A stretch of 45,478 bases of DNA. Source: a virus. The position numbers and the translations under genes were made by a program. The notes below the pieces were generated by a model, which ran no database searches, was not told the origin of the DNA, and saw nothing but the letters and a program-made list of their open reading frames with translations. Below, piece after piece: positions 20,049 to 39,187 of the stretch. The stretch spans positions 1 through 45,478 of the IMG/VR virus record IMGVR_UViG_3300022074_000091. One strand, given 5' to 3'. Every line of letters begins with the position of its first letter. The stretch's first letter is position 1.

Positions 20049-23000
20049 ATGGCTATAACTTTTAGAGACGAGAAAGGAGCTCCTCTAACTCATGAGGAAT
20101 TAGATGCTAATTTTAGATCGTTTTTCTTTACTGCTTCATTTAGTGAGAATAATTTATCTCTTCAAAGAAAAGATGGCGTAACGATTAACGTTCCTGTTGG
20201 TGGTCAAGCATTTGCTGACTTCCAAGAAAACGGTGGATCTATTGGAGACGTCTTTATAGCTGATAGTCAAATTACTGGTAGTAGAATGATTATTGACCTA
20301 TTCAATGGTCAATTTTATGATAAAACTAAAGCTCCAAATTCTGCAGGCGGAGGACTAACCTCAGACGAATGGTATATAGACTTCGATCCTGCATCAACAG
20401 CTCCTTATTATGTACACTTCGGACCTAACTTTGCTATTTCTTCTAGCGGGTATATGTTCGCTTCTGGAGCTAGACTTGAAGGAGATGTAACAGCCTCTTC
20501 TGGTTTGATAGCTGGATTTGGCATAACCCCGGACGCTATACACGGTCCTTTAACTTTAGGGACACCTAACTTCTTTATATCAGGAGCAGCGTCTAATACA
20601 GATCATTTTATCTCAGCATCTAATTTTAGTTTAAAAGGTAGTGGTGATATAACAGGATCAGCAGTATTATTTAGCGGTGGTACTATAGCAGGATGGACCA
20701 TTACTAACTCAGAAATACGTAAGTCATCTAATATAGTGTTAGATGCTACGAACGAAAGTATTTCTATTAAGAGTTCTACTTTCGGTAATCAAGGTATTCA
20801 ATTACAACATAATAGTGGAACTCCGAGATTTTATGTAGGAGATGGAGCATCAAGTTTTGCTAAATTTGACGGCACTGATGTAAGTATATCAACTAAGCTA
20901 TTAGAAATATCTGCTTCTAATATAGAGATATCTTCAACACATGCTTCTATGTCATTAGGCGGTGGTAGTGTAAAACTATTAGGAGCTTCTTCAGCTATAG
21001 AAGTTGGTACTACTAACAAATTTAAAATATCAGGAAGCGCTGAAGACGCAATGATAGTTGCAGGAACTAAAACAGGTTTTGCTACTAACGATGCTGGATT
21101 GATATTAGGTATGGATGCAGCTGTTCCTACGCTGGATCTTACCAAGGATGCTAGTAACTACCTAAGGTTCAATACAACAAGTGGTATTGATATTAAAACA
21201 GATACTTTTAAGTTAGATACAACTAATTTTGATATTGATACTTCTACTAAAAGATTAACTATATTTAAACCTTCTGGGCAAGAAATAATTAGATTAGGAG
21301 AAATATCTAATGCCGCAGGAGATTTATTTGGTTTAAAAATATACGATGGTGCAGGCACCGGTTCTAATAATACCATTGCTCAATTCGGTCAGCAAGGTAA
21401 CAAAGTTGGTGGATGGGAAATAACAGGCGATCAAATAAGATCAATTCCTGCTGCCGGCTTTGGAGGTTCTTATGCTGAAGGTGAAACAGGTTTAATAATT
21501 AATTCATCAGGCACTATAGAATCATCTAACTTTGTAACTAATGTTAAAGGTTGGAGAATAGATACTTTAGGAAACGGTTCTGCTGAGTTTGAAAATATGA
21601 GAATACGTGGTACATTAAAAACTACTGTATTCGAAAAAGAAAGTGTTAACGTTGTTGGTGGTCAGCTAATGGTTACTAACGCTTCTACTATACAGCCATT
21701 AAGATCTGCAGAAGGAACTATTATAGCCGGTTCTTCTTCATATGCTGCTAACGCCGTTACTCTTTCTTTAGCTAACGTATCAGGATTTGAAACAGGAGAA
21801 ATATTAAAAGTAAAAACTGTAGATGATACAGGATTCGGAGTAGAGTATTTATACGTTTCTGGTACGAAAAGATATTCAGAGGACAATGCTTTAAGTTACA
21901 ATACAGGTTCAATAGACCCTGATGGATTAGCAGGAGAAATTTATGTAGAGAGAGGTTTTGGAGGAACTCCTGCTGTTTCTTCATCTATCACTACTGTATC
22001 CTCGAGTGTAGATACGGCATCAGAAACTACTATCGAAGTAGTTAGTTCAACCGGATTGAACTTACAAGATATTATCAAAATTGATAATGAAAGATTAAAA
22101 GTTACTGCTATTAATAATAAAGTATTAACAGTTATTAGAGGTTATCACGATAGTGTTGCCGATTCACATACTGTTGGAGATACTATATTTAAAATAGATA
22201 CCGATAAAGAATTTTTAAGCGGCCTCGTATCCGCAGCACGTCCTCTAAACGAAGGTCAAGTAATATTATCAACAGGTGTATTTAATCCAGCTACAGATAT
22301 ATCTTCCGGGTATATAATGATGAATGCTAATCCTAGAGATATTTCTACTCCTTATATGGACATAGTAGAAAGAACAGGATCAGGGGTTTATGACTTAGAA
22401 TTAAGATCTAGATTAGGAGACCTATCAGGATTATCCTCAGGGTACTTATACGGTAATAATGAACCAGGATTTGGTTTATATACTGAAAATGGATTTTTTA
22501 AAGGGGCTATTACTGCCGATACAGGTTCTATTGCAGGTATACTTCATGTAGCAACTACAGCAGGAGGATTAGAAACAGGTCAAAAAATATCTATAGGTAG
22601 AAAAGTATCAGGCACAACAGGAGCTTTCAACGACGGTATATTTGTAAATAATAATAACTACTGGTATACAGACGGTGCTTGGAAAGTAGGAGGATCAGAT
22701 AACTTTATATCTCTAGATAATTTTACAGACGGAAACTTAGTTATTAGAACAGAAACGTTTACGTTAGATACTCCTACGTTTATGATTTCTAGTTCCTTAA
22801 ATAATGGAACTTTAACTGCAGGTACTAACGCAAGTTCTATAACAACAACATCAGGAACAGGAGTTTATATAGATGGAAATGGTAAATTTAGAGTAGGAAC
22901 AGCAACTAGCGGTAACAACTATATTTACTGGGACGGTAGTACTTTAAATATCAAAGGTGCTATAGATATAACAGGCGGTACCGGTGCAACTACTGCTGAG

Positions 23001-26000
23001 TTGAATGCTGCAACAGCTTCTCTATCAGGATCTTTAGCATCAGAAATATCGTCATCAGATGCTTCTTTATCTAGCTCTTTAGCTACCACAGCTGATACTT
23101 TAGATGCAAAAATATTTACTGACAGTTCAGGTAGAGCTGTTAGACCTCCAACTGCTTCTGCTCAAGGTCTTTATATGACCTCTACTAATTTAGGTTTCTA
23201 TAAAGGTGGGGAATGGGCAACTTATATGGATAACGAAGGAGACTTTTTCCTTACAGGTTCAGCCGGTAATAAACTTGCTTGGGATTCTTCAGCGGGTAGT
23301 TTAGAAATAAAAGGTAGTATAAATATTACTGGAGGTAATGCCGCAACTCAAACCTTTGCTTCTCAAAGTGCAGCAGCAGCTGAATCAGCTTCTTTAGCTG
23401 CGATAACAGATGTATCTTCATCATTAAGTTCATCGATTAGTTCTTCTACCGCTACTTTACAAGACGGATTAGATTCTGCTAATAACGTAATATCAGGTAA
23501 ATCAGCTATATTTAGATCACCAAATCCACCAACAGCAACAGCTATCGGCGATATGTGGATTGAATCAGATGAAGGAAATAGAGTAAGAATTTGGAACGGA
23601 TCAACTTGGGCAATAACTCCTGATGGTACTTATGACCAAACAGTTCTAATTAATACTACATCTGCTTCTTTATCATCATCAGTAGCTTTAGATATATTTA
23701 CAGACTCTACAGGTAAGTTAGTACAAACTCCTGATACTTCTTCAGGTACAGCCGAAGGATTATTTTTAGGAGATACTAATTTAGGATTCTATTCTGGTAG
23801 TCAGTGGAGAACCTATATGGCTAATAACGGTAACTTCTTTTTAACTGGTAGTGATAGTCAATTCTTATCTTGGGATGGAGGACAATTAACTATTAAAGGA
23901 TCTATTAATATAGTGTCCGGTAATGCAGCAACTACATCTTCCGTAGCATCAGCACAAACAGCAGCACAGAACTTTGCTGCTACTGCTGCAGCTAATGCTG
24001 TAACAAGTGGAAGTAATGCAGCATCTACTGCCGAAGCTAATGCTTTAGCAGCTACAAATGCAGCAACTGCCTCTTTATCTAGTTCCCTTTCTGCTTCTAT
24101 AGCAGCAACAGATGCAACAGCACTATCAGTTTCAGCTTCTCATGCTGCAACAGCTAATTCATTTAACGGAGTACTATCAGGAAAAAATTCAGTATTTAGA
24201 CAAAACGATGCTCCATCTACATCAGGACGTACACAAGGAGATATGTGGATAGATGATAATGATGCAAATAGACTTTATATTTTTAGCGGTTCAACATGGG
24301 TTACAGCTTCAGATGCTACCTTTGATCAAACAGCTTTAATTAGCTCTACATCTGCTTCATTCGCTTTAGATACCTTTACAGACAGTACCGGTAGAATAGT
24401 ATCTACTCCTAGTACAACACAAGCCGGTCTATACTTAGGAGATTCAGCTTTAGGTTACTATAACGGTAGTAAGTTTGCTACTTTTATGTCTAATAACGGA
24501 AACTTCTTTTTAACTGGAAGCGGTACTAATAAGTTAGCATGGGATGGTGGTACCTTAACTATAGCAGGAGATATAAACATATTAGGAGGAAATGCTGCTA
24601 CGACAGCTTCAGTTGATGCAGCAACAGGTTCTCTATCAGCATCATTAGCAACAGGTATATCAGCTTCAGTTGCAGAAACCTCTGCTTCAGCAGCATCAGC
24701 ACAGCAAACAGCAACCGCCGCTTCAGGAACAGCAACACAAGCTAGTCAAAACGCAAGTACAGCTCTAACTAGAACAGTTGATAATACCGGTAAGATTACT
24801 TTTAACCCTACACCAAGTGGAACGGGATTATTTATGAGTGCAAATAACTTAGGTTATTACGATACTAATAAATGGAAAGCTTATTTATCTTCTTCTGGAG
24901 AATTTTTCTTAACAGGAAGTGGAAATAGTGGATTAGTATGGGACGGAACAGATTTATCAATTGATGGTAGTATAATAGCTAGAGACGGTTCTATCGGAGG
25001 TATTGAATTAGATGCTACTAAAATGTATATAGGTTCAGGTAACCATAATAATGCAGATACTAAATTCTATACTGACAATACGGGTAAGTTTTCTCTTGGT
25101 AATGCATTATCATGGGATGGAACAACCTTAACTATATCCGGTAGTGTTACCGTAACTAATGAAAATGATTTTGCTTCTCAAGCAGAATTACAAACTGTTA
25201 TTAATGCTACTTCATCGTTAGCTAATCCTGATTCTTATTCATTTGGTCCTTCAGGCCAACCAGGATTTGCTTTAGCTGCTATTACAGGTAGTATAACAGG
25301 AGCAGGATTATTCTTTGATTCAGAAAAATTAGGATTCCATAGTGGTAACAACGGTACGTTCTTAACCTATATGGATAAAGAGGGTAACTTCTACTTAAGC
25401 GGAAGTGGAGATCAAGGTCTAGCATGGAATGGAAGTAGATTAATTATTGGTAATAAAGGATTAGGTCCTTCATTAACTTATCAATTTAGCGGCTCATTAG
25501 ATAGTTCTACTTTCGTATCAGAAAACGGAACAGGAGCGTTAGCAACAGCAACTCTAACTACACCGGTATTAGGAAATAGATTCAATAATAATAACGATGC
25601 ACACGATGCAGGGTTCCACTCAGATGCAATTTTTGCCAGAAGTGACTCTCCTATATTTGAATTTGATATAGTAGCAGGTTCTACGAATCCACGTACTGCA
25701 ATTGGTTTATTTAGAGATACACCAAGTAACTTCGGAAGAGGTCAAATGTCTCATGCCGTAGTAATGGATAATGGTCAGTTTAGTATTTTTGAAAAGAAAG
25801 CAAGTGATTCATTTGGTGTTGAAATAAGAACTCAGCAACAGTTAATGGGTACTACAAATGCTCAATGGACTGACGATACAGATTTCTCAGATAACCAACA
25901 ATTTAGAATTAGAATTAGATTATTACCTACAGGAGCTAGATATACAGTATTTAAAGACGGTAATTTTATAACACCGTTATTTGTATACGATTCTATAACT

Positions 26001-29000
26001 AACGGCGTAACAGAAGCATTTGTAAGACCAGGAGCTAGTTTCTTTTATTCATCAACTTCTGCACAAGTACTTTTCCAAGCAATGGCTGGAGGTCATAGTT
26101 TAGGTAATACTACTAAGATTGCTGGTGATATGATTCAAACAGGACTTATTAAGTCTAATAATCATTCAGGTAATACTAACGGTAATGCATTTACTTCAGC
26201 AGGTACAGCTATTGATTTAGATGGTGGAGCATTTACTTCAACACATTTTAGAATAACTAATTATGGTGCAGCAGTATTTAAAGGATCGCTAGACGCTGCG
26301 ACTGGTAGATTTGACGGTTCGTTACAAATAGGCTCGGGTGATGATATATTTATGGCATCTCCTAATATAGGTATACATTTAGGAAATGCATCATTTAATT
26401 CAGCTCCTTTCAGTGTTACAAAAGGAGGTTTGTTAAAAGCTACTTCAGGTACTATAGGAGGTATTAATTTAGGTACATCTAAAATCTTTATAGGAACTGG
26501 TACTCATAATAATGCAGATACTAAATTCTATGCTGACAATACAGGTAAGTTTTCTCTTGGTGATAAACTATCTTGGGACGGAACTACTTTAAGTATCTCA
26601 GGTAATATTAATATAACAGGGGGTAATGCAGCAACAACAACAGCATTAAATAGTGCAACAGCTTCTTTAAGTTCTTCTATTAATGAATCACAAATTTTAG
26701 CTGCTAACTTAAGCTTAACTAGTAACTTAGAACTTGTAGGTAGATCAGTTAGAAAAATAGCTAATGATAATTCCTGGAATGGTGAAATGAAATCTCTACA
26801 CGGTCAAGCAGGAAGTGCAGAAGTAATATTCAGAGTAACTAATGTTGCATCTAGTAGAAGATTTATGATGGGTCTCAACACTGACCCTTCTACTAATACT
26901 AATTATACAAGTATAGATCATGCCTGGTATATAAATGGTACGACTTCTCAAATTTACCAAAACGGTAATAGCATACAGACATACGATTCAATAAGTAACG
27001 GGGACGTATTTAAGATATGTTATGATGGAGCTACAATAAAATATTACCATAATAATACGCTAAAAAGAACAGAAAGTAATCAAAGTGCTACAACAACCTA
27101 TTACTTAGATTCTTCATTCTTCGATGTAACGAATGACCCTATCTTAGATTGGTTTGATTTTAGCGCAGGAGCAGGTGTTAATGCTAACTTCGATGATGGC
27201 TTTGTTGGAGGATGGACAATTGATTCAGATGCAATCTTCTCTGGTACTAAAAATACTTCAGGATTTAATACCAATGTAGGTATTACTTTAAGTTCTGCAG
27301 GTAGTATACATTCAAAAGGTTTCTTTATCAGTCAATCAGGAGATGCTCAATTTCAAGGGCTAGTACAAGGTTCCGGTATTACTGGTAGTTTGATAGTAGG
27401 TACTAGTATAGTAGGTGGTAATATAGAAGGTGGGAATGTAATAGGAGGTAATATAAGTGTCCCTACTGCTGCTGCACCTAAATTCTCGGTAAATAGCGAA
27501 GGTATTATGACAGCAGAGGATGCTGCTATAACAGGTGAAATAACCGCTACTTCAGGTAGAATAGGTGATTGGATAATCGACCAAAGTACTAATGCATTAA
27601 GAGACGACAATAGCGAAATAATTTTTGAACCTAATATACCAGAAATTCAAATGTTTTCTGGTGCTGAGAAAAAAGTAATTATATCTCCATTAGATGAATT
27701 AACTCCTATTGCTGATACTACTACAAATGTTGATATGGGGAGTATACCAAGCTCTGGAGGAAACTGGTCTACTTTAACTTCTACTACTTCGGTATCTAAT
27801 CCAACATACGGAGTTGTAGGAGGTAGTGCCTTATCAGGATTAGCTACGGCATCTATACAAGGCCCAGATGCTTCAAGTAATACTTTTACAGCAGATGCTA
27901 AAGGTACGTTCGAAATTACCTTAGACGTCCCAGCCTTTACAGTTAAAAGACCTTCAGTTTCAGCATCAGGTTCAACTGTTAATCCAACTTATAATGCATC
28001 TTATAATAATCAAACACATGGTTATATTACTCCTGTAAAAGCATTCTTAGGTGCTGATTTATATTTATGTGCTTTCGATTCTTCCAATAATGAAATTGGA
28101 TCAGTAATATTAGGATCAGCATATAAGTTTGGAAACTCAAGCGCTTATACCTACAGTCAAGCATCAGGAACATCAAGTGGTAATAGCTCCGGTGGTTATG
28201 GATCCGGGGGGAGTGGATTTAAAACTCCATTTGACATTATTGAAGCACAACAATCTGTTGAGGAAACTTCTTTAGTTACTTTAGGTAACGGTGATACTAA
28301 ATTAGCTAGAGATTTACAAGAAGGAGATGAATTAAAAGTATGGGATTATACTAAAAACAAATTTGTTACCGATAAAATAAGTAGAGTAAATAAAGCTACC
28401 AGAGCTGAATATTTTGAAGTTGAAGTAGATAATAAAGTAATTAAAGTATCATGTGGTCATGAATTTTGGATTGAAAATGGCGAAGCTTTAAAAGTAGATG
28501 AAGTTAATCCTGGGTTTACTAAAATATTTATCGACACAGGAAACGGAATAGAAAAAAAATTAGTTACTAAAAGAGAATTAGTAAAAGAAGAATTAAATGT
28601 AGTTTCTATAAAAATTCCTCCTCATGTTAATTATATAGCAAATGGAATAATACATCACAATACTGCTGCATTTAGTTGGAACAATAATGTACAATTTGCA
28701 GGTTCTACTGGTACACAATCTAACCAAGCTGCAGAAAACGGCAAAAAAGTTCTTCTGACTATATCGGAAAGCGGAACTATAAAACTGAGATACAAATGGC
28801 TTTTAAAATCTTCTGCTGCTAGAAACCATACAACTAATGCTTCAGGTATTACTTCTTATACGACTTCTAACTTTAGCGTAAGTAACCAATCTCAGACTTT
28901 TGATTCAGTTGGTTCATTTGATACTCAAGTACAGGTTAAATTGCCTACTAACTTCGTAGAATTAAAAGCCGGGGGATTACAAGTAGTTTCAGGTGCAGAC

Positions 29001-29534
29001 AAATATATTAAAGCTGTAAGACAAGATGCAGGTATAACAGGTAAACAAACTATATTCCAGGTTAAAGGTGGAAACCTATTAGCTGATGATTTATTACCTA
29101 ATACAAACAGTACTAGCACATCTACAGGATTCGATCTCGGAGCTAACGGTAGTAGGTGGAGAAATCTTATAGTATATAGAATTTTTGCTAGAGATAATAT
29201 TACTGCATTTACAACATCTACTTCTTCTGATATAAGGTTGAAAGAAAATATAAGACCTATTACAGGAGCATTAGATAAAGTATTAAACTTACAAGGAGTA
29301 TCATTTGATTGGAAAGATAAAGAAAAAGGTAGTTCCATAGGATTTATTGCACAAGATTTTGAAAAGCAACTTCCTGAATTAACTTATACTGATACTACTA
29401 ATAATTTAGATGATGATATAAATGATGTAAAAACTATCGATTATTCTGCAACGGTAGCGGTACTTACTGAAGCTATAAAAGAACTAACAGCTAAAGTAAA
29501 CGAGCTAGAAAAGAAGTTAGAATCTAAAAACTAA
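20049..29534 (+). CDS. Giant tail fibre with probable mini-intein and S74 chaperone domain
   Basis: A 3161-residue fibre. Residues 1-30 (ITFRDEKGAPLTHEELDANF) match the attachment domain of the short fibre. The shaft runs to about 2700 with at least four imperfect repeats at 1023-1650 and two lectin-like beta modules (about 1808-2020 and 2218-2378). A Hint domain, Ser2736-Asn2871, ends in His-His-Asn and is followed by Thr, so splicing is plausible. The final ~100 residues (SSDIRLKENIRPITG, then GFIAQDFEKQLPE and a coiled-coil end) are a Peptidase S74 intramolecular chaperone, which normally cuts itself off after trimerisation. If both modules act, the mature fibre loses about 240 residues. 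Confidence 0.82.
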   Translation: MAITFRDEKGAPLTHEELDANFRSFFFTASFSENNLSLQRKDGVTINVPVGGQAFADFQENGGSIGDVFIADSQITGSRMIIDLFNGQFYDKTKAPNSAGGGLTSDEWYIDFDPASTAPYYVHFGPNFAISSSGYMFASGARLEGDVTASSGLIAGFGITPDAIHGPLTLGTPNFFISGAASNTDHFISASNFSLKGSGDITGSAVLFSGGTIAGWTITNSEIRKSSNIVLDATNESISIKSSTFGNQGIQLQHNSGTPRFYVGDGASSFAKFDGTDVSISTKLLEISASNIEISSTHASMSLGGGSVKLLGASSAIEVGTTNKFKISGSAEDAMIVAGTKTGFATNDAGLILGMDAAVPTLDLTKDASNYLRFNTTSGIDIKTDTFKLDTTNFDIDTSTKRLTIFKPSGQEIIRLGEISNAAGDLFGLKIYDGAGTGSNNTIAQFGQQGNKVGGWEITGDQIRSIPAAGFGGSYAEGETGLIINSSGTIESSNFVTNVKGWRIDTLGNGSAEFENMRIRGTLKTTVFEKESVNVVGGQLMVTNASTIQPLRSAEGTIIAGSSSYAANAVTLSLANVSGFETGEILKVKTVDDTGFGVEYLYVSGTKRYSEDNALSYNTGSIDPDGLAGEIYVERGFGGTPAVSSSITTVSSSVDTASETTIEVVSSTGLNLQDIIKIDNERLKVTAINNKVLTVIRGYHDSVADSHTVGDTIFKIDTDKEFLSGLVSAARPLNEGQVILSTGVFNPATDISSGYIMMNANPRDISTPYMDIVERTGSGVYDLELRSRLGDLSGLSSGYLYGNNEPGFGLYTENGFFKGAITADTGSIAGILHVATTAGGLETGQKISIGRKVSGTTGAFNDGIFVNNNNYWYTDGAWKVGGSDNFISLDNFTDGNLVIRTETFTLDTPTFMISSSLNNGTLTAGTNASSITTTSGTGVYIDGNGKFRVGTATSGNNYIYWDGSTLNIKGAIDITGGTGATTAELNAATASLSGSLASEISSSDASLSSSLATTADTLDAKIFTDSSGRAVRPPTASAQGLYMTSTNLGFYKGGEWATYMDNEGDFFLTGSAGNKLAWDSSAGSLEIKGSINITGGNAATQTFASQSAAAAESASLAAITDVSSSLSSSISSSTATLQDGLDSANNVISGKSAIFRSPNPPTATAIGDMWIESDEGNRVRIWNGSTWAITPDGTYDQTVLINTTSASLSSSVALDIFTDSTGKLVQTPDTSSGTAEGLFLGDTNLGFYSGSQWRTYMANNGNFFLTGSDSQFLSWDGGQLTIKGSINIVSGNAATTSSVASAQTAAQNFAATAAANAVTSGSNAASTAEANALAATNAATASLSSSLSASIAATDATALSVSASHAATANSFNGVLSGKNSVFRQNDAPSTSGRTQGDMWIDDNDANRLYIFSGSTWVTASDATFDQTALISSTSASFALDTFTDSTGRIVSTPSTTQAGLYLGDSALGYYNGSKFATFMSNNGNFFLTGSGTNKLAWDGGTLTIAGDINILGGNAATTASVDAATGSLSASLATGISASVAETSASAASAQQTATAASGTATQASQNASTALTRTVDNTGKITFNPTPSGTGLFMSANNLGYYDTNKWKAYLSSSGEFFLTGSGNSGLVWDGTDLSIDGSIIARDGSIGGIELDATKMYIGSGNHNNADTKFYTDNTGKFSLGNALSWDGTTLTISGSVTVTNENDFASQAELQTVINATSSLANPDSYSFGPSGQPGFALAAITGSITGAGLFFDSEKLGFHSGNNGTFLTYMDKEGNFYLSGSGDQGLAWNGSRLIIGNKGLGPSLTYQFSGSLDSSTFVSENGTGALATATLTTPVLGNRFNNNNDAHDAGFHSDAIFARSDSPIFEFDIVAGSTNPRTAIGLFRDTPSNFGRGQMSHAVVMDNGQFSIFEKKASDSFGVEIRTQQQLMGTTNAQWTDDTDFSDNQQFRIRIRLLPTGARYTVFKDGNFITPLFVYDSITNGVTEAFVRPGASFFYSSTSAQVLFQAMAGGHSLGNTTKIAGDMIQTGLIKSNNHSGNTNGNAFTSAGTAIDLDGGAFTSTHFRITNYGAAVFKGSLDAATGRFDGSLQIGSGDDIFMASPNIGIHLGNASFNSAPFSVTKGGLLKATSGTIGGINLGTSKIFIGTGTHNNADTKFYADNTGKFSLGDKLSWDGTTLSISGNINITGGNAATTTALNSATASLSSSINESQILAANLSLTSNLELVGRSVRKIANDNSWNGEMKSLHGQAGSAEVIFRVTNVASSRRFMMGLNTDPSTNTNYTSIDHAWYINGTTSQIYQNGNSIQTYDSISNGDVFKICYDGATIKYYHNNTLKRTESNQSATTTYYLDSSFFDVTNDPILDWFDFSAGAGVNANFDDGFVGGWTIDSDAIFSGTKNTSGFNTNVGITLSSAGSIHSKGFFISQSGDAQFQGLVQGSGITGSLIVGTSIVGGNIEGGNVIGGNISVPTAAAPKFSVNSEGIMTAEDAAITGEITATSGRIGDWIIDQSTNALRDDNSEIIFEPNIPEIQMFSGAEKKVIISPLDELTPIADTTTNVDMGSIPSSGGNWSTLTSTTSVSNPTYGVVGGSALSGLATASIQGPDASSNTFTADAKGTFEITLDVPAFTVKRPSVSASGSTVNPTYNASYNNQTHGYITPVKAFLGADLYLCAFDSSNNEIGSVILGSAYKFGNSSAYTYSQASGTSSGNSSGGYGSGGSGFKTPFDIIEAQQSVEETSLVTLGNGDTKLARDLQEGDELKVWDYTKNKFVTDKISRVNKATRAEYFEVEVDNKVIKVSCGHEFWIENGEALKVDEVNPGFTKIFIDTGNGIEKKLVTKRELVKEELNVVSIKIPPHVNYIANGIIHHNTAAFSWNNNVQFAGSTGTQSNQAAENGKKVLLTISESGTIKLRYKWLLKSSAARNHTTNASGITSYTTSNFSVSNQSQTFDSVGSFDTQVQVKLPTNFVELKAGGLQVVSGADKYIKAVRQDAGITGKQTIFQVKGGNLLADDLLPNTNSTSTSTGFDLGANGSRWRNLIVYRIFARDNITAFTTSTSSDIRLKENIRPITGALDKVLNLQGVSFDWKDKEKGSSIGFIAQDFEKQLPELTYTDTTNNLDDDINDVKTIDYSATVAVLTEAIKELTAKVNELEKKLESKN
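23115..25000 (+). repeat. Four imperfect shaft repeats in the giant fibre
   Basis: Protein-level units begin at 23115, 23697, 24375 and about 24771. Each unit runs FTDS-G-x-x, then GL-x-x-x-x-x-LG-[FY]-Y, [AT]-[TF]-M-x-x-[EN]-G-x-FFLTGS, then W-D-G and NAAT. Units are separated by Ala/Ser-rich coiled-coil segments. Spacing varies (582, 678, about 396 bases), so the repeats duplicated and diverged rather than expanding recently. Confidence 0.7.
25044..25100 (+). repeat. 57-base near-identical repeat, copy 1
   Basis: Matches 26504-26560 at 55 of 57 bases, encoding HNNADTKFYxDNTGKFSLG in the giant fibre. This is far more similar than the surrounding repeats, so it reflects recent duplication or gene conversion. 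Confidence 0.75.
26504..26560 (+). repeat. 57-base near-identical repeat, copy 2
   Basis: Second copy of the 25044-25100 element, differing at two bases, one of which changes Thr to Ala. Flanking sequence on both sides is related but more diverged. Confidence 0.75.
28254..28661 (+). other. Probable mini-intein (Hint domain) in the giant fibre
   Basis: Encodes Ser2736 to Asn2871 (136 residues). Block A has LGNGDTKLARDLQEGDEL, block B is Ser-Cys-Gly-His, and the end is VVSIKIPPHVNYIANGIIHH followed by Asn, then Thr. Ser1, the block B His, His-Asn and a +1 Thr nucleophile together meet the needs of splicing. There is no endonuclease domain. A Ser/Gly-rich linker lies just upstream, as in the other two Hint proteins here. 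Confidence 0.72.
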
Positions 29535-29539
29535 CTACT

Positions 29540-30235
29540 ATGGCATTACAAACATCAGGAGCGATTTCTTTAGACGATATACACGATGAAGCAGGAGGCA
29601 CTTCAGGAACTCAATGCTCTATAAATGATTCTGATATTAGAGGTTTAGATGAAGCATCAGGTAAAACTATTAATAATACTGCAGACACAGAGATTGATTT
29701 TGATGATTTTTACGGAGCTGAAATTCCAATAACTAGTGGCAATGGCGGTTCATCAGGAGGTGGATGCTTAGTTTTCGGTACTTTAATTAGTATGGCAGAC
29801 GGTACAAAAAAAGCTATAGAAAATATAGTAGCAGGAGATGAAGTTGTATCTTATAATATAGATGGTTTAGGTACTGAAGAAGAATGGGTAAATTGGTTTA
29901 GTAATAACCTTTCAGGCACTTTAAGTACTTCAACAGTAATTGAAAACAGATTAGCTACATATCATCACTACTACTTAATTAACAATCTTATCAAAGCTAC
30001 TTGGGAGCAACCATTCTTGATCAATAGTAATAATATACGGTTTACTTTAACAGAAGATTTAAGAGTAGGAGAATTAATTTTTAGCAAAGATGGAGAATGG
30101 ATAGAAATAACTAGTATAGAAAGAATAGAAGAAAGTATACAAACTGGAGTACTAGATGTAGAAGATGTAGATACTTATTTTGCTGAAGGTTTTTTAACTC
30201 ATAATGTTGAAGAAGATTTAAAACAAAAAGAATAA
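29540..30235 (+). CDS. Short tail protein with C-terminal degenerate Hint domain
   Basis: A 231-residue protein. The N-terminal 65 residues (SGAISLDDIHDEAGG, then IDFDDFYGAE) form a minor tail protein module shared with the gene at 31857. After a Gly/Ser linker, Cys76 to Asn222 is a Hint domain: FGTLISMADGTKKAIENIVA and GDEV in block A, and a closing DTYFAEGFLTHN. In block B the usual Thr-x-x-His reads Thr-Trp-Glu-Gln, so the His needed for the N-terminal acyl shift is missing. The residue after Asn is Val and only nine residues follow. It starts five bases after the giant fibre's stop. Confidence 0.72.
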   Translation: MALQTSGAISLDDIHDEAGGTSGTQCSINDSDIRGLDEASGKTINNTADTEIDFDDFYGAEIPITSGNGGSSGGGCLVFGTLISMADGTKKAIENIVAGDEVVSYNIDGLGTEEEWVNWFSNNLSGTLSTSTVIENRLATYHHYYLINNLIKATWEQPFLINSNNIRFTLTEDLRVGELIFSKDGEWIEITSIERIEESIQTGVLDVEDVDTYFAEGFLTHNVEEDLKQKE

Positions 30236-30275: not shown

Positions 30276-30755
30276 ATGGTTACAATACCAGGTTGGACAT
30301 ATAAATCATATTACGTAACTGATATAGATGATATGCCTAAAGGTACGTATGGTTTCATTTATGAAACTAAACATAAACCTACAGGTAAAAAATACATCGG
30401 TAAAAAAGTTCTTTTCTTCGAACGTAATAAAAGATTAGGTAAAAAAGCTTTAGCAGCATTAAAAGAAGAAAGAAAAGCAAAAGGTATAGGAGGAAGAGTA
30501 CCTCTTAAACAGAAAGTTATTACCGAATCTGATTGGAAAGATTACTACGGATCTCATAAAGACATTTTAAAATTACTTAAGGAAGGTGATCCAATGGACT
30601 TTGAAAGAAGAATCTTATGTTACGTTCCTAATAAAAAGCTATTAACATATTTTGAATGTAAATACCTATTTATAAATGAAGTACTAGAGCAAGATGACGT
30701 TTATATTAACGATAATGTTCTAGGAAAATTTTATAGAAAAGATTTTATTAAATGA
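30276..30755 (+). CDS. GIY-YIG-like nuclease, free-standing phage type
   Basis: A 159-residue protein. GFIY (26-29) and KYIG (39-42) form the GIY-YIG signature. Later motifs (SDWKDYYGSHKDILKLLKEG, FERRILC, YFECKYLFINEVL) match a family of small GIY-YIG-like proteins of T4-like and cyanophages that includes Seg-type homing and repair nucleases. A catalytic Arg is plausible but not certain. It heads a module behind a host-type promoter and overlaps the next gene by 4 bases (ATGA). Host DNA cutting, homing and repair are all possible roles. Confidence 0.68.
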   Translation: MVTIPGWTYKSYYVTDIDDMPKGTYGFIYETKHKPTGKKYIGKKVLFFERNKRLGKKALAALKEERKAKGIGGRVPLKQKVITESDWKDYYGSHKDILKLLKEGDPMDFERRILCYVPNKKLLTYFECKYLFINEVLEQDDVYINDNVLGKFYRKDFIK

Positions 30756-31054
30756 AACTAACTGATATAATTCTCGAACAAAATCGTTATAATGACGACG
30801 GATACGATGAAGGAGATATCAAACTAATGGGTGATATGATCTTACCAACCGGTAAAATGGTTGTACTTCAAGCAGAAGAAGATACATATAACAGAGGATT
30901 ATTAGTAACAAGTAATGAAGATAAAAGTTACGACGTAGCTTATTGGGCAGATGATAAAACTAAACCTTATCCAATTGGTATAGAAATCGATGGCAAAGAG
31001 GTAGCTAAAGATGCAAAAATAATCAAATTCCTTTTCCACCCAGAAATGAAATAA
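30752..31054 (+). CDS. Small protein with capsid-targeting-like N-terminus
   Basis: A 100-residue protein beginning MKLTDIILEQ. The hydrophobic peptide ending in Ile-Leu-Glu resembles the capsid-targeting peptides of T4 internal head proteins, cut after (I/L)-x-E by the prohead protease, and the same style of N-terminus occurs in at least four other genes here. The rest (PTGKMVVLQAEEDTYNRGLL, then VAYWADDKTKPYP) is a small, acidic beta-rich domain I do not recognise. It overlaps the nuclease gene by 4 bases and lies one base before the next gene. Confidence 0.55.
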   Translation: MKLTDIILEQNRYNDDGYDEGDIKLMGDMILPTGKMVVLQAEEDTYNRGLLVTSNEDKSYDVAYWADDKTKPYPIGIEIDGKEVAKDAKIIKFLFHPEMK

Positions 31055-32885: not shown

Positions 32886-33247
32886 AACTATCAAATATAC
32901 TATTAAACGAGTACGGAGAGTTTAAAGCTGAAGAAAATAAACTTGAAAAATTACTAAAAAGGAGATTAAGTCAAGCTTATAGACTTAATATTAATATGAA
33001 CGCTTATGATCAAGATAGAAAAGACGATGATCCTTTAAAAGGAAAAGGTTTTGGTTCTATAACGTTTGTTTATAGAGATGAGATACCTCATGACGATTTT
33101 GAAATGGCAAAAGCCTTACTTACGAATCAAGGACTTGAAGTTATAGAAGATCAATCAACTAACTACTACGATAGTGATCCAGGAGAAAGAGATTATTTTC
33201 CAAAAATAAAATTTCACTTTAATCTACATCAGACAAATTATAAGTAA
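32882..33247 (+). CDS. Small protein with capsid-targeting-like N-terminus
   Basis: A 121-residue protein beginning MKLSNILLNEYG. The Leu-Asn-Glu at 8-10 fits the (I/L)-x-E prohead protease site, and the N-terminus aligns with those at 30752, 33247 and 36075. The body is mixed charged alpha/beta (EENKLEKLLKRRLSQAYRLN, FGSITFVYRDEIPHDDFEMA). I do not recognise the domain. It overlaps the upstream gene by 4 bases and its last base is the first of the mini-kinase gene, so the two are probably translated together. Confidence 0.55.
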   Translation: MKLSNILLNEYGEFKAEENKLEKLLKRRLSQAYRLNINMNAYDQDRKDDDPLKGKGFGSITFVYRDEIPHDDFEMAKALLTNQGLEVIEDQSTNYYDSDPGERDYFPKIKFHFNLHQTNYK

Positions 33248-33675
33248 TGAGACTTTCCCACGTAATATTAGGAGAAATTTTATATTACGATCCTGATTTT
33301 GAAAGAGAAACAGATAAAATCGAAGATCAAGGAGGAGTAAGATTGGGTTCAGGTGATTACGGTACAGCTTATCTTCTTAACGGCCGAGTATACAAAGTCA
33401 CTACTGACGAAATTGAGCTTGAACATGCACAACTTCTTAAAGGTAAAAAAACTAATAATTTTGCACATATTTACGATGTTGAGGTTATAGATAAAAAATT
33501 AGGTATTATACAAATGGAAGTTTTAGGAAAATATAAAGGTAATATTCCGGAAGAATGGGTAGATGCTGTTGAAAAAGAAGCTCCTAGGTACGGAATAGAT
33601 CCAGACGAGCTTGATATAAGACCTTCAAACATAATGGTTAATCAGAAAAAACACCTTAAATTAGTTGATATTTAG
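33247..33675 (+). CDS. Kinase-like mini-protein with capsid-targeting-like N-terminus
   Basis: A 142-residue protein carrying the key motifs of a protein kinase-like fold. Gly-rich loop GSGDYG (34-39), Lys50 in VYKV at the place of the ATP-binding Lys, a Glu-rich helix (57-59), a hinge-like IIQMEVLGKY, the catalytic loop DIRPSNIMV (Asp123, Asn128; compare DxKPxN), and Asp141 in LVDI at the place of the DFG Asp. The protein ends one residue after Asp141, so the activation segment and most of the C-lobe are absent. The N-terminus MRLSHVILGE resembles a prohead-targeting peptide. Activity is uncertain: it could be a true minimal phosphotransferase or an ATP-binding pseudokinase. Confidence 0.62.
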   Translation: MRLSHVILGEILYYDPDFERETDKIEDQGGVRLGSGDYGTAYLLNGRVYKVTTDEIELEHAQLLKGKKTNNFAHIYDVEVIDKKLGIIQMEVLGKYKGNIPEEWVDAVEKEAPRYGIDPDELDIRPSNIMVNQKKHLKLVDI

Positions 33676-33695
33676 ACTAATTCTTCTTATATTAT
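33662..33695 (+). promoter_or_regulatory. Host-type promoter
   Basis: TAGTTG at 33662-33667 overlaps the last codons of the mini-kinase gene; after exactly 20 bases comes TATATTAT at 33688-33695. ATG 33721 of the primase gene follows 25 bases later. Same layout as at 940, 30236 and 39185. Confidence 0.62.
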
Positions 33696-33720
33696 TATAT
33701 AACTAGTTACAGAACAACGT

Positions 33721-34644: not shown

Positions 34645-35423
34645 TAAAACAAGGTATGAACATTCTCGAACAAAACGAGAAAAAAAGGTTGGACTTTAAA
34701 CCTGAACTCCAACAAATTAATTTTTTAGATAGAAGAGTTTATAAAAGATCGGAAGGAGTATACTATCCATCTGTAACTACCATACTCCAATATATGCCCA
34801 AAAATAAATTTTTTGAGTCATGGCTTAAAGATGTTGGGCATAGTGCCGATCTTATTATGAGAAGAGCTGGTAAAGAAGGAACCCAAGTACATGAAGCAGC
34901 AGAAGCATTAGTAAAAGGAGAAGAAATTTCTTGGATGGATGCTTACGGTAATGCTAAATACTCTCAAATAGTATGGGAAATGATTCTTAAATTTCATGAT
35001 TTCTGGAGTTCCTGTAAACCTGAATTAATATCCACAGAAGACTTTGTATATTCTGATGAATTTAAATTTGCTGGTACTGCCGATTTAGTAGTAAAAATGG
35101 ATGATGAAGTTTGGCTGTTAGACCTTAAAACTTCTAATAGTTTACATAAGTCTTATGACCTACAGTTAGCAGCATACGCTAAAGCATTAGAAGAAACTAA
35201 AGGTATTAAAATAGATAGAACCGGTATTATTTGGTTGAAAGCTCAATCAAGAGGACCTTCTAAAAAGCAAGGAGTATATCAAGGAAAGGGCTGGAAAATA
35301 AAAATAGTAGATGAAATTGATTATAATTTTGATTTATTTCAAACAATCTATAAACTATATTCTTTAGAAAACCCTAAGGTTCAACCTATTTATAATAGTT
35401 ACCCAACTACACTAAAATTATGA
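34641..35423 (+). CDS. PD-(D/E)XK nuclease, Cas4/RecB-like
   Basis: A 260-residue nuclease. Motifs in order: GTQVHEAAE (His84), FAGTADLVV (Asp148), LLDLKTS (Asp161, Lys163) and LQLAAYAKALE (Gln in motif QxxxY). This is the PDDEXK_1/Cas4-RecB exonuclease arrangement, used for DNA end processing, recombination or host DNA degradation. No Cys cluster for an iron-sulfur centre is seen, unlike Cas4. The N-terminus (GMNILEQNE) loosely resembles the targeting-type peptides of neighbours, with ATG 34641 overlapping the primase stop. It ends in ATGA overlap with the lipoprotein gene. Confidence 0.82.
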   Translation: MIKQGMNILEQNEKKRLDFKPELQQINFLDRRVYKRSEGVYYPSVTTILQYMPKNKFFESWLKDVGHSADLIMRRAGKEGTQVHEAAEALVKGEEISWMDAYGNAKYSQIVWEMILKFHDFWSSCKPELISTEDFVYSDEFKFAGTADLVVKMDDEVWLLDLKTSNSLHKSYDLQLAAYAKALEETKGIKIDRTGIIWLKAQSRGPSKKQGVYQGKGWKIKIVDEIDYNFDLFQTIYKLYSLENPKVQPIYNSYPTTLKL

Positions 35424-36313
35424 AAAGATTACCAAGCTCATTATTTAGACTTCTAGGTGGTTTAATTACCATTTTTTTGCTTCACGGATGTGCTTCGTAT
35501 AAACTTGCCACATTAAATCACGATCCTTTATACCCGGTCGATTATATTATACCGGTTGCAAAAGAAACTAAAATAGACACGATAAATTCCTTTTCAGATT
35601 TAAGGTGGAAGTTAAGAACTGACTTTAATTTTAGATGGGACTTTGCTCAATATGCTATGAATCAACCTTATTCATGGTACTGGAATAATCCAAGGTTAGA
35701 CGGAATATGGAGACCATATAATAGATTCGATGTTTATTTTCATAGTCACTGGTTTTGGACTGATTGGGCTTTCAGTTATAATTCTTGGTCCTGGTACGAC
35801 TGGTATAGACCTTTTCACTATTACGGATGGAACCGTCCTTACAGACCATGGAATAATGTAGTATGGGGTTCGAATTATAATAATTATAATGTTGCTTATA
35901 TTAATGGAAGAAGAGGGAGTAACGTAACTAATTATAATAATAGGACCATTAGTAATCGAATAATTACTAGATATAATAATCCTAGAAATAACGTTAATAA
36001 CGATAATATTAATCGTATAGTTAACGAATTTAAAGAAAATGGCCTTAACGTAAGAATAATAAATAACAGTAATAATGATCAAATTATCAGAAATAATTCT
36101 GGAACAAACTGGTCGTCCGAAAGCCGTAATAATGGCAGGGGGAGCTGGAACAGGCAAAACATACCTTCTAAACCAGTTGTCCCTAGACTCTCTAACCCAG
36201 TTCAACCCAGACAAGTATATAGAGGATCCGGATCACCCGTATTACAACAAACTAGGTCCAGCGTCCAGTCAAACAGCCAAGGACGCAATGGCGGCAGCGG
36301 AAGAAAAAATTAG
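35420..36313 (+). CDS. Aromatic/Asn-rich lipoprotein, C-terminus overprinted by the next gene
   Basis: A 297-residue protein with a signal peptide (two basic residues, hydrophobic 11-21) and a lipobox ending Leu-His-Gly-Cys24, so it is probably a lipoprotein. Residues 75-150 are extraordinarily rich in Trp, Tyr, Phe, Asn and Arg (NRFDVYFHSHWFWTDWAFSY), and from 150 on Asn/Arg/Ser dominate. The last 79 codons overlap the kinase gene at 36075 by 239 bases in another frame. Surface lipoproteins of phages often block superinfection or act in lysis; neither is shown. Similar aromatic prolipoproteins exist in Flavobacteria. Confidence 0.68.
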   Translation: MKRLPSSLFRLLGGLITIFLLHGCASYKLATLNHDPLYPVDYIIPVAKETKIDTINSFSDLRWKLRTDFNFRWDFAQYAMNQPYSWYWNNPRLDGIWRPYNRFDVYFHSHWFWTDWAFSYNSWSWYDWYRPFHYYGWNRPYRPWNNVVWGSNYNNYNVAYINGRRGSNVTNYNNRTISNRIITRYNNPRNNVNNDNINRIVNEFKENGLNVRIINNSNNDQIIRNNSGTNWSSESRNNGRGSWNRQNIPSKPVVPRLSNPVQPRQVYRGSGSPVLQQTRSSVQSNSQGRNGGSGRKN

Positions 36314-37016
36314 CTTTGTTTGGGATACTACTGCTTCAGGAGCTGGCTTTCAGAGAAACTTAGACAAGTTACTTTCTCTAGGTTATGATGTATATATGGT
36401 GATGGTATATGCACATCCTATGATTTCATATATTTCAAATTTTAAAGGTAGAAAAAGAAATGTTCCTGCAGATGCAGTAATGTCTACCTGGAGAAATATT
36501 TATCAAAAAATTGAAGATTATAATAAAAAATTAAAAGGTAATTTATCTATACATGTTAGCGATAGGGGCGGAAAATTTAATAAAGAAATTGAAGGATTTA
36601 ATACTGCTGCTAAAGCAGGAATATCTGGAGTTAAAGATTATTTAAAGAGGTATAATGAAGAAAACGATATAGGAGGTTCATCTTTCTTTGAACCAATAGA
36701 AATGTCTAAAGAAGAAGAGGACGAGTTTATAAAGCATGTTGGTAGTCTTAGTTGGGACAAGGATAGTAGATCTGAAGACAAAGCTATTAAAAAAGAATTT
36801 TTAAAAGCATATAGAAAAAACGGAGTAGGTCCTGGTCAAGATAAATTAAGAGATGCAGTAAAAAAGTATAGAGATAGAAAAGCAAAAAGAGATGCAGATT
36901 ACGATGCAGTTTTAGACAACATAATTGATATGATTTATAATCCTATTTTTCAAGAAAAACTTAAGCACTCTACTCCTAGAGAAATAGATCAAAAAGTACA
37001 AGCATTTTTAGCATGA
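36075..37016 (+). CDS. Zeta-toxin-like P-loop kinase with capsid-targeting-like N-terminus
   Basis: A 313-residue protein opening with MIKLSEIILEQ, the targeting-type peptide seen in several neighbours, followed immediately by a Walker A motif GGAGTGKT (22-29, Lys28). Further zeta/AAA_33 features: FVWDTTASGAGF near 85, and YAHPMISYISNFKGR then Arg/Val-Pro-rich R-x-x-x-x-x-x-W. Zeta toxins phosphorylate UDP-GlcNAc and stop wall synthesis; the phage relative may do this or phosphorylate another small molecule or RNA end. The C-terminal ~110 residues are charged helices. ATG 36075 is inside the lipoprotein gene, and the stop overlaps the next ATG. Confidence 0.72.
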   Translation: MIKLSEIILEQTGRPKAVIMAGGAGTGKTYLLNQLSLDSLTQFNPDKYIEDPDHPYYNKLGPASSQTAKDAMAAAEEKISFVWDTTASGAGFQRNLDKLLSLGYDVYMVMVYAHPMISYISNFKGRKRNVPADAVMSTWRNIYQKIEDYNKKLKGNLSIHVSDRGGKFNKEIEGFNTAAKAGISGVKDYLKRYNEENDIGGSSFFEPIEMSKEEEDEFIKHVGSLSWDKDSRSEDKAIKKEFLKAYRKNGVGPGQDKLRDAVKKYRDRKAKRDADYDAVLDNIIDMIYNPIFQEKLKHSTPREIDQKVQAFLA

Positions 37017-39187
37017 TAGCACTATACCCAGGAGCATTTAAACCACCTCATAGAGGTCATTTTAACGTAGTAAAATCTTTACTCGACGGCTCTTATAATG
37101 GTTCTATATACGATAAAGACAATTATAAAGAAAAGGGTATAGATCTAGTTTCTGGTAAATCTAATGAAAAACCTAATATAGATAAAGTTATAGTATTTGT
37201 AGGTGCAGGAGAAAGAAACGGTATAGATAAAGACGAAGCATTAACTATTTGGAACATATATGCTAGATACTTAGGTAATGTAGAAATATTAGATGGAGGA
37301 AGTAACCCAATGTTTGCTGCAAAAGACTATGCTCAAGCAGATCCCGAAACTAAATTCGTAGCAGTAACAGGAATAAGATCAGAAGAAGATTTTGTAGATT
37401 TAAGGAGAGTTACTACTTTTAAAAATGCACCTAACGTACAAGGTTTAGCTTTAGCTTCTAAACCCGGTTCAGGTGTAAGAGCTACAGATTTTAGAAAAAA
37501 TATACTTTCAGGTAACTTAGATCAAATTACAGATTTTTTTCCTAAAGATCTATCAGGAGAAGAAATTTTAAAAATTTTAAACGATCTGAAAGATAAAATC
37601 GTTGCAGAAATATTAGCAAACAATATAGATGGTTTTATAAATGAATATTTTAACGAAGGGCAATTGAATAAAACAGGAATAATAAACTCTGTTGATAAAA
37701 ATAGATTAGATATACTTTATAACTACCTTTACAGATTAATACCTAGCGGAGTTAATATTACTCACAATAGAGATTATTTAACAGTAAAATTTGATAACAT
37801 GAAAGAAGAACAATTGTCTTTATTTAAAGTAGCACCGTCTGGAAAAGTGTTTAACCTAATTCAACAGTTTAGACAAGAAGCAGGATCCCAACAGTGTAGT
37901 ATTTACGATAAAAGAGACAACTGTGGCCCAGCAGCATTAGATTTTATTTCATGGGCTGAATCTAAAGGAATAAAAGACCTAAAAAGAATAAGAGGTTTCT
38001 TTAGGGCAGACATTCCAGTCTCTGGAAAAAGAGATTTTACTCGTGAAATGAAACAAGAATTTTTAAAGGATGGTGGAAATTGGAATAGTGCTAAAGAGAG
38101 ATTCGAATGGATCTCTAATAGCAAATATAAAGAACAATGGAAGTATATTCCTCATTTCTGGGTAGAAGATTCAAAAGGTAGAATTTATGACACAGTAGGT
38201 CAACAGCAATTCATTGATGCTGGTTATTCTAAAGATTTAAACTCAGATAGATACACGTTATCTGATATACTAGAAACTTTGTTCAATGGTAAAGTAAAAA
38301 GAAAACAATCTAGATTACAATTAAAAGATTATATTACTTCTTTAACTGAATATATGCTTGATATAGGAATGAATATTACACCTTTGCCCGAAGTTGTAAT
38401 TAAAAAAGATCAAAATAATGCTAATAACTTTTTTGGAAGAACAGCTTATTATTCTCCTTCTGAAAAAAAAATAGTTTTATATATTACCGGAAGACATAAT
38501 AAAGATATAGTTAGATCTTATGCACATGAAATGGTGCATCATATGCAAAACTTACAAGGCGTTCTCAACAACATCAATACTACCGATACTAACTCAGATG
38601 ATAGATTATTACAATTAGAGAAAGAAGCATATACTTTAGGTAACATAACTTTTAGAAACTGGGAAGATAGTATAAAAAATTTAGACGAGAGTTTATGGGC
38701 GAATATAAATGCTAAAAAGAAATCTGGTAAAAAATCTTCTCATAAAAATTCAAAAGCGTATAAAGCAGCTAAAAAAGCAGGCACGGCATTAAAAAAATCT
38801 AAAAACGAAATAGTATTTAGTATCGATGAATTAGCTGAAGATTTAATCAAATTAATAAAAGAAGAACCTAAAAAAGGTACAGGTAAGAAACCAAAAGGAT
38901 CAAGCAGAAGATTATACACAGATGAAGATCCAAAAGATACAGTTGGAGTTAAATTTAGCTCTAGACAAGATATAGTAGATACTTTAAATAAAAAATCATT
39001 TAAAGCTAAATCTCATGCTAGACAATCTCAAATTATAAACTTGATTCATCAAAGAACTAGAGCAGCATATAATAGAGCAAAAAAACCTGATGTTAAAAAA
39101 CGTTTAAAAAGTGCTTTTGACTATATAAAAGATAGAAAAGAAGCGTCTAAAAAGAAGACTCAACGTTTAAAAAAATCTAAAAAATAG
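37013..39187 (+). CDS. Fusion of nucleotidyltransferase, cysteine-protease-like and zincin domains
   Basis: A 724-residue protein. Residues 1-195 form a cytidylyltransferase-like/NMN-adenylyltransferase fold: YPGAFKPPHRGHFNVV at the start and SKPGSGVRATDFRKNI near 155-170 (an ISxTxxR-like motif). Residues about 295-410 look like a papain/transglutaminase-type enzyme, with Cys304 in NCGPAALDF, His381 in PHFW and Asp393 in YDTVG as a possible triad. Residues 430-560 are a zincin: HEMVHH at 505-510 and Glu538 in LEKEAY as third ligand. The last ~130 residues are Lys-rich. No targeting peptide is seen. The combination suggests several ejected or auxiliary activities in one chain. Confidence 0.68.
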   Translation: MIALYPGAFKPPHRGHFNVVKSLLDGSYNGSIYDKDNYKEKGIDLVSGKSNEKPNIDKVIVFVGAGERNGIDKDEALTIWNIYARYLGNVEILDGGSNPMFAAKDYAQADPETKFVAVTGIRSEEDFVDLRRVTTFKNAPNVQGLALASKPGSGVRATDFRKNILSGNLDQITDFFPKDLSGEEILKILNDLKDKIVAEILANNIDGFINEYFNEGQLNKTGIINSVDKNRLDILYNYLYRLIPSGVNITHNRDYLTVKFDNMKEEQLSLFKVAPSGKVFNLIQQFRQEAGSQQCSIYDKRDNCGPAALDFISWAESKGIKDLKRIRGFFRADIPVSGKRDFTREMKQEFLKDGGNWNSAKERFEWISNSKYKEQWKYIPHFWVEDSKGRIYDTVGQQQFIDAGYSKDLNSDRYTLSDILETLFNGKVKRKQSRLQLKDYITSLTEYMLDIGMNITPLPEVVIKKDQNNANNFFGRTAYYSPSEKKIVLYITGRHNKDIVRSYAHEMVHHMQNLQGVLNNINTTDTNSDDRLLQLEKEAYTLGNITFRNWEDSIKNLDESLWANINAKKKSGKKSSHKNSKAYKAAKKAGTALKKSKNEIVFSIDELAEDLIKLIKEEPKKGTGKKPKGSSRRLYTDEDPKDTVGVKFSSRQDIVDTLNKKSFKAKSHARQSQIINLIHQRTRAAYNRAKKPDVKKRLKSAFDYIKDRKEASKKKTQRLKKSKK

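Follow-up and report, generated by a model that had tools for sequence, protein, structure and literature searches.

A predicted miniature kinase fold that stops at the DFG aspartate and follows a putative capsid-targeting tag in T4-like marine phages

In the present study, we analyzed P0001, a 142-residue protein encoded on the plus strand at positions 33247-33675 of a 45,478-base stretch of viral DNA (the window), which is the entire IMG/VR virus record IMGVR_UViG_3300022074_000091. The results indicated that P0001 is, with high probability, a conserved mini kinase fold. According to the predicted structure, it would be a natural miniature form that comprises Hanks subdomains I-VII and ends at the DFG aspartate. 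Delivery of the protein in the capsid was also judged to be likely from its N-terminal sequence. As described in the initial annotation, the open reading frame (ORF) contains, in this order and all on the plus strand, the glycine-rich loop GSGDYG (residues 34-39, G34 to G39; 33346-33363), Lys50 in the position of the beta3, VAIK-type lysine (33394-33396), the catalytic loop DIRPSN (D123 to N128; 33613-33630) and Asp141, the DFG-type Mg aspartate, which is followed by Ile142 and the stop codon (33667-33675). The coding sequence was assigned from the ORF, the conserved stop and the predicted structure. Minimal kinases and T4-type ejected proteins are each already known, and P0001 would join features of the two.

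IMG/VR was scanned four times for homologues, each time with a different query, which yielded more than 200 homologous loci. All 84 distinct complete homologues were 141-147 residues long and had D-[IV]-stop as their common end, and the end point was unchanged down to an identity of about 41% to the window protein. The stop noted in the initial annotation is hence shared by the relatives. Since more than 200 loci were found and an alignment of 64 sequences contained 17 invariant columns, the ORF did not arise by chance. Because all homologues end one residue past the DFG aspartate, the activation segment, the APE motif and helices F-I are absent from P0001. As an explanation for this end, we considered that P0001 is the remnant of a truncated kinase or a pseudogene, or that readthrough or frameshifting completes the kinase; this was rejected, because the stop is conserved in 84 of 84 homologues and in-frame stops follow soon after. 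The codons past the window stop read ACT AAT TCT TCT TAT ATT ATT ATA TAA; readthrough would cover these nine codons only and add at most eight to nine residues. The upstream slot is occupied among relatives by several unrelated small tagged proteins and the downstream gene is usually a primase, so that no constant neighbor able to supply a C-lobe was found at the relatives' loci. Two interrupted homologues of the Immutovirus clade, L147 (4001-4441) and L151, contain an internal stop or frameshift and would suit such decay; they are exceptions, which may reflect sequencing errors or real decay. For the window, the conserved stop effectively refutes this explanation, to which we assign almost no probability. 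The 142-residue protein is real, and its stop is natural rather than a truncation. If the fold is as predicted, the miniature form is conserved over a large group of marine and freshwater phages. A pattern scan of 84,980 species genomes revealed no bacterial or archaeal relatives, and thus no host origin of P0001 was found. Searches of PHROG, NCBIfam and PADLOC assigned it to no significant family.

The structure of the window protein was predicted by AlphaFold2 from the 64-sequence alignment. The model reached a predicted local distance difference test score (pLDDT) of 89.2 and a predicted template modelling score of 0.82, with disorder confined to residues 1-11. It contained helices at residues 16-27, 55-64 and 102-115 and beta strands at 31-35, 39-44, 47-52, 75-82, 85-90, 129-131 and 137-139. 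The Immutovirus clade was modelled separately; the protein used, which shares about 43% identity with that of the window, gave a pLDDT of 88.4 and identical end points. When the window model was compared with the PDB by Foldseek, kinases filled the top 50 matches (best E=1.8e-5, probability 1.00). VIA structural comparison gave a best Z of 10.6 (PKR, 121 residues, 3.6 A) and aligned residues 22-142 to CDK2 1-146. Residue 142 was consistently paired with CDK2 146, MEK1 209 and PKR 433, each of which we take to be the residue just after the DFG aspartate. Because the model superposes on CDK2 1-146, on MEK1 up to 209 and on PKR up to 433, Asp141 was assigned as the DFG aspartate. The predicted structure together with the invariant G36, G39 and K50 indicated that the N-lobe features of kinases, including the glycine-rich loop, the beta3 lysine and helix C, are present. 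These results supported the kinase-like fold proposed in the initial annotation, which was predicted in two clades.

Sequence profiles alone stayed below threshold. The Pfam Pkinase model (PF00069) matched P0001 at E=0.09 and 12.6 bits, below its cut-off of 31.7, so that the fold stood by structure and not by hidden Markov model. A single-sequence search of the PDB returned no matches. A profile search of the PDB returned kinases below threshold only (E about 0.3-2, from E=0.27), with IMPDH intermixed, and OspG gave no match among the listed rows of these sequence searches. Because the sequence profiles are too weak, the kinase assignment is based on the predicted structure and the order of the motifs. 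The structural neighbors listed were overwhelmingly eukaryotic protein kinases, by which small kinases of the APH, HipA and RIO types are not excluded; likewise, the fact that no OspG or APH chains were seen among these neighbors excludes nothing. Short phage kinase-like proteins, from Serratia phage Yaphecito and Xylella phage Cota, were structural neighbors in BFVD.

Conservation of the active site was examined in 85 sequences. G36, D37, Y38, G39, K50, T52, T53, D54, E57, N128, M130 and D141 never varied. Glu57 (33415-33417, plus strand) lies in the predicted helix-C equivalent (55-64). Asp123, at the HRD position, was Asp in 72 of the 85, including the window, and Ser in the other 13, which form the Immutovirus clade. 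Since the Mg and nucleotide ligands are kept in 85/85 and Asp123 in only 72/85, the ligands are more tightly constrained than the catalytic base. Such a pattern favours an ATP-binding module that, in some members of the family, has lost catalysis or catalyses only under certain conditions. The initial annotation had offered either a minimal phosphotransferase for a small substrate or an ATP-binding pseudokinase; the loss of Asp123 in one clade leans toward the pseudokinase without settling the choice. A self-sufficient minimal phosphotransferase, which would act without a C-lobe on a small molecule, a nucleic acid or itself, is in our estimate unlikely. The marine clade (72/85) retains the full set of Lys50, Asp123, Asn128 and Asp141, and a small substrate could do without the peptide-binding C-lobe; however, 13 of the 85 homologues carry Ser in place of the catalytic base while retaining all Mg/ATP residues. 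In addition, further shortening of the C-lobe abolishes the activity of SteC, a minimal kinase that is less reduced (PMC13395416). A third option that the initial annotation did not contain is a kinase completed by a partner, as might be proposed by analogy with OspG. OspG and NleH correspond to kinase subdomains I-VII only, and OspG activity requires host ubiquitin (PMC7943720). Because subdomain VII is the DFG motif, the reduction of P0001 equals that of OspG or is slightly greater.

The first ten residues of P0001, MRLSHVILGE (33247-33276, plus strand; pLDDT about 35), are a predicted capsid-targeting tag with an L-G-E cleavage site. In all 84 homologues, an [ILV]-x-E site had its Glu at residue 9 or 10, with the remaining tag residues varying, as in MRLSHVILGE, MKLYRIISE, MISIYNILKE and MKTTRITLGE. 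When 1,313 distinct ORFs from the loci were scanned for the N-terminal motif, tags of the MKLSxIILxE type were detected in 204 proteins belonging to 17 clusters with unrelated bodies, and the control at internal methionines gave 1/4439. Because this ORF set was enriched for the P0001 locus, the cluster count is the informative value. In genome-wide counts compared with shuffled sequences (500 shuffles, as stated for G005), the window had 7 tags against a shuffle mean of 0.8 (maximum 4) and the relative G001 had 12 against a mean of 3.3 (maximum 10). In L014:1743-2366, a complete Fe/Mn superoxide dismutase (SOD) domain starts at residue 12, directly behind MKLSKLLLEEK, and a Zeta-toxin-like domain starts at residue 11 behind MIKLSDLILE. 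Because both domains start directly behind the tag, the tag is separable. In the window itself, the tag was found on the upstream neighbor of P0001 (32882-33247, plus strand; 121 residues, tag MKLSNILLNE on an unrelated body, from the tag scan and locus comparison), on a small protein (30752-31054, plus strand; tag MKLTDIILEQ, from the tag scan) and on a Zeta-toxin-like P-loop protein (36075-37016, plus strand), in which MIKLSEIILEQ directly precedes the domain. The Zeta-toxin-like tagged cluster comprised 36 distinct proteins.

Some further N-termini were observed in these phages. Their SODs (L014, L244, L248, L252, L253 and L258) begin with a short extension that carries an [IL]xE-like site and precedes the domain, and the sequence suggests a capsid-packed Fe/Mn SOD. 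In the Immutovirus clade, other N-termini recur, namely MKKSQLREIIRKE and MENTFDLKKFLVENKL in up- and downstream neighbors (L120-L150) and MENNFDMHQWRANFLKE adjoining the prohead protease; these are possibly alternative capsid tags.

The geometry of the P0001-family tag equals that of the T4 internal proteins IPII and IPIII, which both begin MKTYQEFIAE|A. These ten residues are enough to direct packaging in T4, where positions 8 and 10 act as determinants of processing (PMC9026906). Proteases of the gp21 type cleave after Glu (PMC5694885). A T4 gp21-type prohead protease (PF03420) was detected in all six long relatives tested; the 45-kb window record, which is a fragment, contained no PF03420 match. 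The gene adjoining the prohead protease was also tagged in three long relatives. The shared, cleavable-looking tag and the gp21-type protease thus lent strong, though indirect, support to the capsid delivery that the initial annotation had mentioned as possible. Two other roles were weighed against these data. P0001 could be a cytoplasmic early or late phage protein whose N-terminal motif has a non-capsid role. No virion proteomics that would prove packaging was found, the Immutovirus tag MISIYNILKE diverges in sequence and the genome-wide signal there is borderline, all of which would agree with this role; nevertheless, the motif is separable, disordered and common to 17 unrelated bodies, it ends in a gp21-like cleavage motif and the protease is present in the genomes, and we regard a cytoplasmic protein as improbable. 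Alternatively, the kinase fold could serve as a scaffold in a structural component of the prohead core that is tagged and then packaged or degraded, with no host function. The protein encoded beside the prohead protease, probably a core protein, is tagged as well, which agrees with such a role. However, strict invariance of the nucleotide and Mg residues is unexpected in a passive scaffold, and the P0001 gene groups with changing tagged cargo genes rather than head genes; a structural role was considered very improbable.

On balance, we favour a combined reading, which we hold to be moderately probable, in which a mini kinase fold behind a T4-type tag is packed, injected and then acts as a partner-dependent kinase or a nucleotide-binding pseudokinase. 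The tag would recruit P0001 to the prohead core, and the prohead protease would cleave after Glu10 to leave a mature protein of about 132 residues, which would be ejected with the DNA into the host. Inside the host, the N-lobe, hinge and catalytic loop may bind Mg-ATP. Because the activation segment, the APE region and helices F-I are absent, a peptide substrate could not be held in the usual way. P0001 would most likely act through a partner. A host protein may complete and activate it, in the way that ubiquitin conjugates do with OspG, or it may be an ATP-dependent pseudokinase whose binding to a host target modulates that target in the early phase of infection. Several points weigh against this combined reading. 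The TM-scores to solved kinases were modest (TMq about 0.5), and the Lys50-Glu57 salt bridge of the model is putative. The tag count in the Immutovirus-clade genome G005 was borderline (10 against a mean of 3.4, equal to the shuffle maximum of 10). Neither virion proteomics nor data on cleavage, ATP binding or activity were found for the family, and we identified no target or activating partner of P0001. Literature searches on phage mini-kinases and on the tag in Bacteroidetes phages retrieved nothing direct. In a more specific and tentative form, which we think rather doubtful, P0001 would be an injected half-kinase (subdomains I-VII) whose kinase activity, or role as an ATP-dependent regulator, would arise only after docking on a bacterial host protein that provides the C-lobe function. 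Such a docked half-kinase would correspond to OspG on the phage side and might be the smallest kinase fold in nature. If the combined reading is true, P0001 would be among the smallest natural kinase folds, and the minimal kinase content needed for function would become testable. Moreover, T4-like Bacteroidetes phages may inject varied enzyme cargo, including a kinase fold, a Zeta-like ATPase and SOD, under one tag, and a recognizable tag would permit ejected effectors to be predicted from sequence.

The gene order in the window is tail-fibre-like genes, a SegE-like nuclease, several small proteins, P0001, a primase-like gene and an exonuclease-like gene; neighbor genes were named by position and by comparison with Flavobacterium phage immuto. 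This cultured phage (vB_FspM_immuto, an Immutovirus), the only isolated relative found, has a comparable gene order. Its homologue, gp093 (YP_010114590), is annotated 'hypothetical protein', and its DnaG primase and exonuclease lie one gene beyond. The host of the P0001-carrying T4-like marine phage family is probably Flavobacteria. The 45-nucleotide gap between P0001 and the primase gene (33676-33720, plus strand) contains a TTCTTATATT-type element without coding continuation. The distance to the primase start is likewise about 45 nucleotides in most marine relatives, where a recurring TTCTTATATT-like element or a variant of it precedes the primase gene. The TTCTTATATT / TTCGTATATT-like element between the two genes, in the window and in relatives, is possibly a phage promoter.

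Other features of the window were also observed. The long ORF at 35420-36313, whose product resembles a Tyr/Trp/Asn-rich lipoprotein (LLHGC), overlaps the Zeta-toxin-like gene (36075-37016) by 239 nucleotides on the same strand in a different frame. The 724-residue protein at 37013-39187 has a nucleotidyltransferase-like motif, GAFKPPHRGH, at its start and a weak metallopeptidase match (DUF6782, E=0.067); its positional counterpart in immuto is annotated as nicotinamide mononucleotide adenylyltransferase, and it is apparently a multi-domain phage protein. Reading by eye revealed Hint/intein-like stretches within tail proteins or at their end. One (...VEETSLVTLGNGDTK...IIHHNTAAF) was found in the 3161-residue tail protein at 20049-29534, and another (GGGCLVFGTLISMADGTK...LTHNVEE), with a weak intein_Cterm match, in the next tail protein at 29540-30235.

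Compared with the protein kinase superfamily (PF00069), P0001 is predicted to have an N-lobe, a hinge, a catalytic loop and the DFG aspartate in the kinase order but lacks the DFG phenylalanine and glycine, the activation segment, APE and helices F-I; its helix D is apparently absent and its helix E is short. It is 26-57 residues shorter than the Yaphecito and Cota phage proteins (168-199 residues), with which it shares 15-19% identity. Among known systems, P0001 comes nearest to the T4 internal proteins in its predicted delivery and to OspG/NleH in its fold. P0001 resembles the type III effectors OspG and NleH in having subdomains I-VII only, without an activation loop or canonical C-lobe, and would share their delivery into a target cell. 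Unlike OspG, it has nothing beyond the DFG aspartate plus one residue and thus no C-terminal ubiquitin-binding part, and its bacterial host has no ubiquitin; P0001 is presumably about 50 residues shorter. SteC is similar in its reduced C-lobe and gave a weak, sub-threshold profile match (E=0.27). Unlike P0001, SteC retains helices F and G, and its activity depends on this C-lobe (PMC13395416). Finally, the P0001 family resembles T4 IPI, IPII and IPIII in an N-terminal tag of about ten residues that ends in a Glu cleavage site, in the use of one tag across diverse small cargo whose genes differ between relatives, and in an encoded gp21-type protease. The tag consensus, MKLSxIILxE, differs from the T4 MKTYQEFIAE, and in contrast to the small T4 internal proteins, the predicted packaged cargo here consists of a kinase fold and other enzymes.
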